A stretch of 64,000 bases of DNA, taken from the NCBI GenBank assembly GCA_016208115.1, contig JACQYR010000022.1, positions 1 through 64,000 of the forward strand, written 5' to 3'. Numbering within the stretch: position 1 is the first letter of the stretch; each line of letters begins with the position of its first letter. Source of the DNA: Desulfarculus sp. GTDB lineage: Bacteria; Desulfobacterota; Desulfarculia; Desulfarculales; Desulfarculaceae. Shown one piece after another: positions 42,974 through 48,722 of this stretch. The notes under the pieces are model-generated. The model had not been told where the DNA came from. It ran no database searches and was given only the letters and a program-made list of their open reading frames with translations. The position numbers and the translations under genes were made by a program.

Positions 42974-43155
42974 AGCATCCTCCGTAGACCAAAAATATGG
43001 TCAGAATACGGGAGTATATTCGTATGTGGACAGGCTTCGCGGGCGTTGCAGATGATGGCCCATTATTTACCGCCTGCCCTGCCGGCCGGTCAACGCCTGC
43101 CTGGCAGGGTGGGCCTTGGGGCCGCCAGTTACTTGTACACAGGGTAATATCCTTG

Positions 43156-43172
43156 AATAATTAAAAATTATT
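43156..43172. other. AT-rich inverted repeat AATAATT-AAA-AATTATT in the dnaA upstream region
   Basis: Perfect 7-bp arms in an AT-rich stretch of a GC-rich window. Confidence 0.5.
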
Positions 43173-43252
43173 GTGCCAAGCCCGCAAGGGGCGGGATTTA
43201 GGTTTTTTTTGCCCCGCCGGGGTAAGCCCGCAAGCCCTTTGGGCTTCCAGGA

Positions 43253-43272
43253 TTAGTCACAATTGTGACTAA
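43253..43272. promoter_or_regulatory. Perfect 20-bp palindrome TTAGTCACAATTGTGACTAA
   Basis: Sequence equals its own reverse complement; lies between dnaA and ald. Confidence 0.65.
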
Positions 43273-43619
43273 AATTGACACACAGCCAATCTTCAAATTT
43301 CTTCAAAAAATTCAAAAAATCGCCGATTTTCATTTTTATTAGGCTAAGAAACCCGCCGGGGGCCTAACCAGCGGTAAAGATGGCGAAAGGGTTGTCCCCC
43401 CGTCGGGGGAGGCACTTCGTGAAAAAATTTCCCTGTCAAAACCGCCCGGCCGGCGGGCCTGGGACCCACCGGCCGGACCGGGTTGTGGGCGGCGGGCCGG
43501 CGCGGCGCCAACCGCGTCCCGCCATGACGGAGGCCGTGTCCCCATCCGCGGGGGAAGGGACCGGCCAGGCGAATCTTACGTCCTCACCCCTCCGGCCGCA
43601 AGCCCGGCCCGTGGCGCCG

Positions 43620-44714
43620 CTACCAGAGGGGCTGGCAGACCGCGCCCAGAGACTGGGCCACCTCGGGATGGGTGAAGGCCCCGGCGTGGGTGTTGAAGCC
43701 CTTGGCCAGGGCGGGGTCGCGCCGGGCGGCTTCCAGGGGGCCGCCGGCCAGGGCCAGCACGTAGGGCAAGGTGACGTTGGTCAGGGCGAAGGTGCTGGTG
43801 CGCGACACCGCCCCGGGCATGTTGGTCACCCCGTAGTGGATCACCCCGTGCAGGGTGTAGATGGGGTCCTCGTGGGTGGTGGGGCGGATGGTGGCCACGC
43901 AGCCGCCCTGGTCCACGGAGACGTCCACGATCACCGAGCCGGGGTTCATGGCCATGACCATCTCCTCGCTCACCAGGCGGGGGGCGCGCGCCCCGGCGAT
44001 CAGCACCGCTCCGATCAAGAGGTCGGCGGCGGCCACGCTGCGGGCCACGGTGTCGGGCAGGGAGATGAGGGTGGTGATGCGCGAGCCGAAGATGTCGTCC
44101 AGATAGGTCAGGCGCCTTAAGTTGCGGTCCAGCACCGTCACCTCGGCACCGATGCCCACGGCGATCTTCAAGGCCGCGGTGCCCACCACCCCGGCCCCCA
44201 GGATGGTCACCCGGCCCCGGCGCACCCCGGGCACCCCGCCCAACAAGAGCCCCCGGCCGCCGGCCTGGCGCTCCAAGTAATGGGCCCCGGCCTGCACCGC
44301 CATGCGGCCGGCCACCTCGCTCATGGGGGTGAGCAGGGGCAGGCTAAAGTCCTCCAGTTGGATGGTCTCGTAGGCCACGGCGGTCACCTGGCGGCTTATA
44401 AGCTCCTGGGCCAACTCGGGCACCGCCGCCAGGTGCAGGTAGGTAAAGAGGGTCAACCCGGGGCGCAGGTACTGGTACTCCTGGGCGATGGGCTCCTTGA
44501 CCTTGACCACCAGGTCGGCGGCCCAGGCCTCCTCGCGGGATACCATCACCGCCCCGGCCTCCAGAAAATCCTGGTCACTCAGGCCCGCCTCCAGGCCGGC
44601 GCCGCTCTGCACCACCACCTGGTGGCCGGCGCCGGTCAGGGCCCGCACCCCCGCCGGCACCAGGGCCACTCGAAACTCGTCAACCTTGACCTCCTTCGGT
44701 ACGCCGATGAGCAT
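43620..44714 (-). CDS. ald: Alanine dehydrogenase
   Basis: [79 protein letters not shown]. Confidence 0.95.
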
Positions 44715-45022
44715 CTGCTCCCCCTTTGGCCAGGATGAGATTGCGCTTCATGCCCGCGGCCGGCCCGCGACGCCGCCGGCCCCGCCGGGCATGGGGTCAT
44801 AAACTAATGATAAACAACCGCCGCCGCCCGCCGCCAGGACCTGCCAGGGGCCGGCCATGGTCCCTGGCCGCCCTGGGCGCTGACAAGGTGGCCAGAACCT
44901 CGGCGTATCTCCAAGCGCCTTGCCAGCGGTCCCCGGGGGGGCCGCCGCCCGGCCTGGTGGGCCGGGCCCACACCCCGGCCGGCCCGGGCCTTCAGTATGC
45001 GCCAAAAAGCCCGTCCTCGGCC

Positions 45023-45525
45023 CTGTTCCACCGCCTCCCCGAGGGCGGCCAGGGGTTTTTGCACGGCCCTGGGCCGGGGCAGCCGGTGCTTTCCACCGCC
45101 GGGGCCAGGCTGGTCCTTATTTTCCCACAGCCGCCCGGGCCTCTGGCCAAGTTTTTCCACCCCGCGCCCCGGCCCTGGGGCAAGTATTGCTCCACCTCGC
45201 CTCCGGGTTTTGCACCGCGTTCAGGGTCGGGTCCGGGTTTTTCCGCCGAGAGCAGTGCCGTATTGCCCCGGCCCGAGCCTGTTTCTCCACCGCCAGGCCG
45301 GGCAGAATCCAGGGAGATAGCCCAGTTTTTCCGCCAAGCCTCCGGGGCTCGGCGAGTTTTCTCCACCCGAGGCCGGAATGTCCCTCCACCGCGCGGGCCA
45401 TGTTTTCCACGACGTTCCCACGATGACCGCGATTAGCCCCACAACCGGGGAGGGCCACACGGGTCTTGCCCAGAAGGGCTCTCCACCGGGCCGGGCGAAA
45501 ATGCGGCGGAGGGGTTTTTCGGTAG
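45023..45525 (+). repeat. Non-coding array of ~16-18 degenerate GTTTTTCCACC motifs with helical-turn spacing (candidate DnaA-box array/oriC)
   Basis: Motif centres read by eye at 45030, 45063, 45095, 45127, 45159, 45194, 45214, 45245, 45268, 45289, 45333, 45365, 45388, 45409, 45420, 45441, 45485; spacings 33,32,32,32,35,20,31,23,21,44,32,23,21,11,21,44; all same strand; no convincing ORF. Confidence 0.65.
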
Positions 45526-45660
45526 CCCATGGGCCGAAATCCCCGGCTTGCTTAGGCCCGGGACATATCCCTTCCTGGTGTGCTACATTATGAAAACGGC
45601 GGGATGGACAACGGCGGACGGTTTTGGGCCGGTCAAGGCATTTCACAATGAATCAAGGCC

Positions 45661-45725: not shown

Positions 45726-48722
45726 ATGCCCCCAGAGCCTCCTGCCCAGGCCCCGGATTTGTTGCGCCAATTGGACGAGGCCCAGCGCCGCGCCGCCCGC
45801 CTGGGGGAGGAACTCAGGGCCAGCCAGGAGCGGCTGGAAACCCTGCGCGACCTGATGGGTCCCGAGGGCCAGGCCAGCCTGGCCCTGGAGCGCCTTCTGC
45901 TCAGGGAGGCCCACTACCGCACCCTCTTCGAGACCGCCAATGACGCCATCCTGATCCTGGCCGACGGCCGCATCCTGGACTGCAACCCCCGCGCCCTGGA
46001 GTTTTTCGCCGCCAACCGCCAGGACCTGGTAGGCTCTTCCCTCGCGGACCTTTCGCCCCCGGAACAGGCCGGGGGCCTGGACTCCCTTGGGGCCGCGCGG
46101 CAACTTACCGGCCAGGCCCTGGCCGGCCATCCCCAGAATTTCACCTGGTGTTTCCAGGGCCTGGGCCAGAACCGCCTCGAGGCCGAGGTGAGCCTTAACC
46201 GTCTGGTGCTCTCGGGCCAGGATTACCTGCTGGCCGTGGTGCGCGACGTGACCCAGCGCCGCCGTACCGAGGAGAACCTGCGCGCCAGCGAGGAGCGCTT
46301 CCGCAATTTGAGCGAGAACGCGCCCGACATTATCTACGCCCTGGGCCAGGACGGGGTCTTCACCTACGTAAACCCGGCCTGGCGGCGCATCCTGGGCCAC
46401 GCCCCCGGCGAGGTGCTGGGGCGCTTCTTCGTGGACTTCGTGTTGCCGGCCGAGCGGCCCTATTTCCGCGAGGCCTTCCGGCGCATCCGCGACCAGCAGG
46501 AGATACTGCGGACCACCCGCTGCCTGCTGCACCAGGACGGCAGCCAGCGCCTGTTCAGCATGAGCGGCTCGCCCAACCTGGACGCCCGGGGGCGGGTCAC
46601 GGGCATGGTGGGCATGCTCAAGGATGTCAGCAAGCGGGCGGCGGCCGAGCAGGCCCTGCGCAAGAGCCAGGCCAGCCTGACCCGCGCCCAGAAGATGGCC
46701 CACCTGGGCAACTGGGAGATGGACCTGGCCACCAACCAGATGACCTGCTCCGAAGAGGTGTTTTGCATCTATGGCATCGGCGGCCCCCAGGTCCCGGTCA
46801 GCCTGAAGAGCTTCATGCTCTCGGTGCACTCCGCCGACCGGGAGCTGGTGCGCCGGCACCTCGACATGGTCCCCGGCATGCAAGGGCCCCTGGGCCTGGA
46901 GCACCGCATCGTGCGCCCCGACGGCCAGACCCGGGTGGTCTACCAGTTGGCCGAGTTGGTGCGCGATGAAAAGGGCCGACCCCAGATGCTGGTGGGGGCC
47001 GTGCAGGACATCACCGAGCGCAAGCGCTCGGAAGAGCACATGAACCTCCTGGCCAGGGTCTTCGAGAACACCGTGGAGGGCATCCTGGTCACCGACCGCC
47101 AGGGCCTCATCCGCATGGTCAACCGTGCCTTCACCACCATCACCGGCTTTGCTCCCGAGGAGGCCATCGGCCAGACCCCGCGCCTGTTGTCCTCCCACCG
47201 CCAGGGGCCGGAATTCTACCAGGCCATGTGGCAAGGCCTGGAGGAGCAGGGGCACTGGCAGGGCGAGATATGGAACCGCCGCAAGAACGGCGAGGCCTAT
47301 CCCGAGTGGCTGACCATCACCGCCATCAGGGACCCCCAGGGCGGCGTCTCCCACTACGTGGGCGTGTTCCACGACATCACCGAGATCAAGCGCAGCGAGG
47401 AGCAGATCAGCTTCCAGGCCTACCACGACGCTCTCACCGGCCTGCCCAATCGCCTGTTGTTCAACGACCGCCTGAACATGGCCCTGGCGCACGCCCAGCG
47501 CCAGAACGATGGCCTGGCCGTGCTGTTTTTGGACCTGGACAACTTCAAGAACATCAACGACAGCCTGGGCCACGCCATGGGCGACCAGCTCTTGCAGGCC
47601 GTGGCGCGGCGCCTGGTGCGCTGGGTGCGCGACGAGGACACCGTGGCCCGCCTGGGCGGCGACGAGTTCATCATGCTGCTCTTGGGCACCCACACCCCGG
47701 ACTACGCCGTGCAGGTGGCCAGCCGCATCCTGGAGACCATGTCCGAGCCCATCCGGGTGCGCGGCCAGGAGTTCTACCTCACGGTCAGCATCGGCATAAC
47801 CCTCTACCCCCACGATGGCGCCGACGCCGAGACCCTGGTGGCCGGCGCCGACACGGCCATGTACCGGGCCAAGGCCGACGGCCGCAACAACTACAAGCTC
47901 TTCACCCCGGCCATGAACCAGCAGGTGGTGCGGCGCATGGACCTGGAGCGCAGCCTGCGCCGGGCCTTGCGCCAGGGCGAGTTCGTAATGCACTACCAGC
48001 CCAAGGTGGAGCTGGCCAGCGGCGAGGTGGTGGGGGTGGAGGCCCTGATACGCTGGCAGCGGCCCGGGGTGGGGCTGGTGCAGCCGGCCGACTTCATCCC
48101 CGTGGCCGAGGAGACCGGGCTGATTGTGCCCATCGGCGAGTGGGTCTTGTTCACCGCCTGCCGCTGCGCCCAGAACTGGCGACAGCAGGGGTTCCCCCAA
48201 CTACGGGTGGCGGTGAACATCTCGCCGCGCCAGTTTCGGCAGCGCAACCTGGTGCAGATGGTGGGCCGCGCCCTGGCCGAGAGCGGCCTGCCGCCCCAGT
48301 GCCTGGAGCTGGAGGTCACCGAGAGCGTGGTCATGCACAGCGTGGAGGAGGCCATCGCCACCCTGGAGCAGCTCAACCGCCTGGGGGTGCAGCTTTTCAT
48401 GGACGACTTCGGCCGGGGCTACTCCTCGCTCTACCACCTCAAGCGCTTCCCCATGCACGCGCTCAAGATTGACCGCTCCTTTGTCAGCGACATCGCCACC
48501 AACCCCGGCGACGCCTCCATCGTGGACACCATCATCTCCATGAGCCGCAGCCTCAACCTCAAGGTGGTGGCCGAGGGCGTGGAGACCGTGGAGCAGCTCA
48601 ACTTCCTCAAGGGCCTGCGCTGCGACCAGATGCAGGGCTTCCTCTTCAGCAAGCCCCTGCCCGCCGAGGAATTGCAGGCCCTGCTCAAGCGGCGCCTGCC
48701 GCGCGACAACGATAAACACTGA
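45726..48722 (+). CDS. Multi-PAS GGDEF-EAL domain protein
   Basis: Several PAS/PAC units, DALTGLPNRLLFNDRL, VARLGGDEFIMLL, VEALIRWQRPGVGLVQPADFIPVAEETGLI, FMDDFGRGYSSLYHLKRFP. Confidence 0.95.
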   Translation: MPPEPPAQAPDLLRQLDEAQRRAARLGEELRASQERLETLRDLMGPEGQASLALERLLLREAHYRTLFETANDAILILADGRILDCNPRALEFFAANRQDLVGSSLADLSPPEQAGGLDSLGAARQLTGQALAGHPQNFTWCFQGLGQNRLEAEVSLNRLVLSGQDYLLAVVRDVTQRRRTEENLRASEERFRNLSENAPDIIYALGQDGVFTYVNPAWRRILGHAPGEVLGRFFVDFVLPAERPYFREAFRRIRDQQEILRTTRCLLHQDGSQRLFSMSGSPNLDARGRVTGMVGMLKDVSKRAAAEQALRKSQASLTRAQKMAHLGNWEMDLATNQMTCSEEVFCIYGIGGPQVPVSLKSFMLSVHSADRELVRRHLDMVPGMQGPLGLEHRIVRPDGQTRVVYQLAELVRDEKGRPQMLVGAVQDITERKRSEEHMNLLARVFENTVEGILVTDRQGLIRMVNRAFTTITGFAPEEAIGQTPRLLSSHRQGPEFYQAMWQGLEEQGHWQGEIWNRRKNGEAYPEWLTITAIRDPQGGVSHYVGVFHDITEIKRSEEQISFQAYHDALTGLPNRLLFNDRLNMALAHAQRQNDGLAVLFLDLDNFKNINDSLGHAMGDQLLQAVARRLVRWVRDEDTVARLGGDEFIMLLLGTHTPDYAVQVASRILETMSEPIRVRGQEFYLTVSIGITLYPHDGADAETLVAGADTAMYRAKADGRNNYKLFTPAMNQQVVRRMDLERSLRRALRQGEFVMHYQPKVELASGEVVGVEALIRWQRPGVGLVQPADFIPVAEETGLIVPIGEWVLFTACRCAQNWRQQGFPQLRVAVNISPRQFRQRNLVQMVGRALAESGLPPQCLELEVTESVVMHSVEEAIATLEQLNRLGVQLFMDDFGRGYSSLYHLKRFPMHALKIDRSFVSDIATNPGDASIVDTIISMSRSLNLKVVAEGVETVEQLNFLKGLRCDQMQGFLFSKPLPAEELQALLKRRLPRDNDKH

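Follow-up and report, generated by a model that had tools for sequence, protein, structure and literature searches.

Bacterial chromosomes are usually considered to carry one DnaA initiator and one origin of replication. The regulatory sites datA and DARS require partner factors, such as IHF or Fis, and iteron-type plasmid origins consist of same-orientation repeats spaced by whole helical turns near the initiator gene. In the DnaA oligomerisation region of bacterial oriC, several boxes are present, and both their orientation and their helical spacing matter (PMC4285127, PMC10316083). The sites datA and DARS, together with titration sites, provide the basis of analogy for control of initiation outside oriC (PMC4585315, PMC5010248, PMC12371093). 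In E. coli, datA and DARS keep a conserved relative distance to oriC (PMC4585315), and chromosomal DnaA boxes titrate DnaA (PMC12371093).

The 64-kb stretch of DNA analysed here (the window) contains an array of DnaA-type boxes near a second, divergent dnaA gene, dnaA2 (Table 1). No description of this arrangement of dnaA2 and a phased box array was found in the open-access literature. The locus suggests a separate site for initiator assembly and control, located near a divergent dnaA copy and not at the main origin.

Table 1. Coordinates of the array and of neighbouring features in the window
Feature	Position	Strand	Remark
dnaA2, divergent second DnaA paralogue, 441 aa	41648..42973	-	DnaA_N, AAA+ and box-binding domains
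AT-rich non-coding DNA upstream of dnaA2	42974..43400		family-conserved
Perfect 20-bp palindrome TTAGTCACAATTGTGACTAA upstream of dnaA2	43253..43272		
ald, alanine dehydrogenase	43620..44714	-	gene name from the first-pass annotation, consistent with its conservation
DnaA-type box array, helically phased	45021..45526	+	consensus G-TTTTTCCACC-GC
Clear box 9-mer starts (1)	45024, 45057, 45089, 45121, 45153, 45188, 45208	+	45024, first box
Clear box 9-mer starts (2)	45239, 45283, 45327, 45359, 45382, 45403, 45479	+	45479, last clear box
Weak box 9-mer starts	45262, 45435, 45464, 45516	+	
Point where sister G002 has ~104 bp more	45433..45434		AT-rich stretch and further TTTTCCACC boxes
PAS-GGDEF-EAL gene	45726-48722	+	right flank of array

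Box content, helical phasing and identity of the array

The array is located in a GC-rich non-coding stretch between ald (minus strand) and the PAS-GGDEF-EAL gene (plus strand). A matrix search of 45021-45526 revealed 12-13 clear and several weak copies of the consensus on the plus strand, corresponding to approximately 12-16 degenerate TTTTCCACC boxes, with all strong ones on that strand. When up to two mismatches to TTTTCCACC were allowed, 14 sites could be counted in 45000-45540, whereas 2000 dinucleotide shuffles gave 3.0 on average and at most 9, none reaching 14. At the same threshold, the best other 541-bp segment of the 64 kb contained 7 matches, and the opposite strand never exceeded 3 per 541-bp segment. 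The motif array therefore lies where the first-pass annotation had put it, but the 16-18 copies reported there take in several weak sites. The matrix-derived spacings were 33, 32, 32, 32, 35, 20, 31, 44, 44, 32, 44 and 76, some of the gaps between called boxes being filled by weaker sites, and the spacing list previously measured by hand was close to these values.

Helical phasing was evaluated out of sample: the matrix and the period came from genus g4 alone and were then applied to the window. Ten sites of the window array were phased with R=0.94 at 10.82 bp (p=5e-5), so that the periodicity proposed earlier exceeds random placement and was not by-eye luck; the null was random non-overlapping placement, which is not an evolutionary null. 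The same test was also significant in G009, G002 and M71 (p 0.0008-0.0026), fell short of significance in G006 (0.065) and G010 (0.18), and relied on three sites only in G007 (p 0.01). Across 13 related genomes a common box period of 10.85 bp was obtained, and each genome singly outperformed random placement (fraction at most 0.023); the matrix used here was trained on those same genomes, and the g4-trained test is the cleaner one.

Clusters of the same TTTTCCACC box were present at the 3' end of the canonical dnaA gene, dnaA1, before dnaN, in G014, G017, G012 and G008, and the dnaA1 contig of the window genome carries weaker boxes at the same place, adjoining AT-rich DNA. An exact pair search in 16 genomes returned 39 pairs, by our count 7 at dnaA1, 8 at the dnaA2 array and the others scattered, oriC and the dnaA2 array being the two recurrent places. 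Within genus g4 the boxes were conserved and the spacers divergent. Judging from sequence, the array boxes are very probably DnaA boxes, since they agree with the ones present at the dnaA1-dnaN origin in relatives. With the array also kept and phased across the family, the earlier description of a DnaA-binding array is well supported at this level.

The dnaA2 gene and its linkage to the array

The window genome encodes three Bac_DnaA proteins, namely those of dnaA1, which is close to dnaN on contig C186, the dnaA2 of the window, and a third gene on contig C189. DnaA2 has the DnaA_N, AAA+ and Bac_DnaA_C domains, the Walker A motif and the DHSTV box-binding signature of the DnaA family; the window protein departs from the family in Walker B, where EE replaces DD, and in sensor 1, where SD has become GA. 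The nearby dnaA of the first-pass annotation is this divergent paralogue, and the canonical gene is on another contig. Canonical and divergent DnaA were both present in 14 of the 16 family genomes searched, while G003 gave no canonical match and G015 only a fragment of the canonical protein; a second full-length DnaA occurred in nearly every family genome with enough sequence. In phylogenetic trees, the DnaA2 clade (100/99) also took in the DnaA of the sister family f4 and of many further families of Desulfobacterota, in which no other DnaA was found; several deep branches of these trees were long, some genomes were drafts and the root was not fixed. By its placement, DnaA2 is a member of an old Desulfobacterota clade. 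Phylum-wide, DnaA scores were bimodal, some families having a single type, canonical or divergent, and others both, which suggests an old duplication with differential loss.

The third, DnaA2-like paralogue (contig C189; L005 7355-8794, L042) was located among phage-like genes (primase, methyltransferases), and no box array could be found near it. A phage origin of DnaA2 was rejected, given no relative in the viral-contig scan and less than 35% identity among the phage-record matches listed. In G014, two dozen near-identical weak Bac_DnaA/IstB-like matches (263-268 aa) probably represent a multiplied insertion sequence.

The array accompanied dnaA2 in six of seven genera (g1-g6; weakly in g3), located on the upstream side of dnaA2 and pointing away from that gene; G011 has dnaA2, and the array was not found. 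The ald gene lies between the two in genera g1 and g4 only and is therefore probably not part of the array/dnaA2 system. In G006, G009 and G010, ald was elsewhere with the array still by dnaA2, at 0.5-2.6 kb, which ruled out the array as part of ald. The genes on the far side of the array differed between relatives, and no array was found near dnaA-type genes of the other families examined, including DnaA2-only families. The gene polarity noted previously (minus strand to the left, plus strand to the right) was not clean because plus-strand genes occur directly left of dnaA2.

The AT-rich element directly upstream of dnaA2, with the palindrome core TCACAnnTGTG, recurred in the family genera examined, except in G010, and was absent upstream of dnaA2-type genes of the other families examined; the palindrome is a possible operator. 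The AT-rich segment 45590-45720, to which the first-pass annotation had drawn attention, was not conserved as such in relatives and was thereby ruled out as an unwinding element. The AT-richest 30-mer (77-93% AT) was followed by only one or two boxes in 12 of 17 arrays, and it often lay in a 44-bp box gap. Most such stretches were not significant against composition-matched shuffles, so an AT-rich stretch near the far end of the array is suggestive only. The window species has none inside its array, and the extra ~104 bp of G002 gave no match in the genome of the window in a search run without a positive control.

Position relative to oriC and proposed function

The array contains a DnaA-box cluster, as a chromosomal oriC does. 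Skew profiles were taken from 20-kb samples of two complete relatives, G014 and G007, the genome of the window being a draft, and in both the GC skew switch was at or near dnaA1 and not at the array or dnaA2. In G014, the skew was mostly negative from ~2.3 to 4.44 Mb and switched at dnaA1 (record start), and the array is at 4.104 Mb, 375 kb from dnaA1. In G007, the switch occurred between ~200 and 262 kb with dnaA1 located at 273 kb; the record starts at dnaA2 and its weak array, about 274 kb from dnaA1. The distances correspond to ~8.4 and 7.5 percent of the chromosome, respectively. No cumulative-skew minimum was present at the array within the window, and the dnaA1, dnaN and origin-like boxes of the window genome sit on another contig. 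The array as main oriC was accordingly rejected, and the earlier proposal of a candidate origin is not supported in the sense of the chromosomal oriC.

Skew samples from G042 were noisy, and those from G095 were at odds with this pattern. Skew turning from plus to minus is the usual terminus pattern; in G095:C1, a divergent-type dnaA was seen at ~87.5 kb where coarse samples turn in this way. The complete record of G007 (G007:C1:1-1664) begins beside dnaA2, ~200-273 kb from the skew switch and dnaA1, and has probably been numbered from the wrong dnaA.

Our preferred reading, held tentatively and at slightly less than even confidence, is that this DnaA-box cluster, which lies outside oriC, is an element of the dnaA2 locus and controls initiation rather than starting it. 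Since the boxes are on one strand and almost on one helix face (~10.8 bp per turn), DnaA1, DnaA2 or both could line up side by side on them and grow into a one-directional filament. Replicated not long after oriC, the array would take up DnaA or switch it, in the manner of datA, DARS and the titration clusters of E. coli, and the nearby DnaA2 may supply or modulate the array-bound protein. The ancestor of the array may have been an origin at which DnaA2 formerly acted. Two observations count against the control reading: in relatives, the AT-rich stretch close to the far end of the array looks more origin-like than titration-like, and in G011 the array is missing beside dnaA2.

The main rival is an accessory or former chromosomal origin of DnaA2, unlikely in our estimate, in which the array would be the oligomerisation region, unwinding would take place either in the AT-rich stretch close to the distal end of the array or in the AT-rich region preceding dnaA2, and firing would be rare, conditional or lost. 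DnaA2-clade proteins are presumably able to initiate, since no other DnaA was found in f4 and many further families, and some known origins are bipartite with a gene as spacer (PMC4285127); the position of the AT-richest 30-mer in the 12 arrays also fits. However, neither G014 nor G007 has a skew switch at the array, the AT-rich stretches are mostly non-significant and missing from the window species, and DnaA2-only families have no such array near dnaA. The stronger proposal, that Desulfarculaceae have two DnaA initiators and two origins per chromosome, dnaA1 going with oriC and dnaA2 with its phased array as a second, conditional origin, is a long shot.

Next, and less likely again, comes a transcriptional control element, through which array-bound DnaA would regulate ald, dnaA2 or the divergent gene. 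That DnaA can act as a transcription factor is established, and the genus g4 array begins ~33 bp from the ald start codon; however, the array stays with dnaA2 where ald is elsewhere, at 0.5-2.6 kb from dnaA2, its far-side genes are not conserved and a dozen boxes are many for one promoter. It is very improbable that the sites, instead of being DnaA boxes, are phased T-tracts that curve the DNA or are bound by some unrelated protein. T runs repeated at ~10.8 bp would bend DNA, but the most informative matrix position was a C of CCAC (1.69 bits), with constraint at least that of the T-run, and relatives carry this 9-mer at oriC.

Comparison with known systems

With a second DnaA and its own phased array, it becomes directly testable how two initiators evolved and divide their labour, and the array offers a natural template for how DnaA oligomers read helical phase. 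Similar to iteron-type plasmid origins, it consists of same-orientation repeats near an initiator gene with whole-turn spacing; it differs in being chromosomal, in having DnaA boxes instead of Rep sites and in its irregular spacing of 1-7 turns. It resembles the oriC oligomerisation region of E. coli, T. maritima and H. pylori in its several helically spaced boxes, and the oriC of its own family in the box itself, but it is neither at the GC-skew switch nor adjoining dnaN and, in the window species, lacks a conserved unwinding element. As a non-coding DnaA-box cluster away from oriC, by 375 kb in G014 and about 274 kb in G007, it is comparable to datA, DARS1, DARS2 and the titration sites of E. 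coli. It differs from datA, which has five boxes, in having 12-16, and from all of these sites in that its boxes are on one strand, helically phased and near a second dnaA gene.
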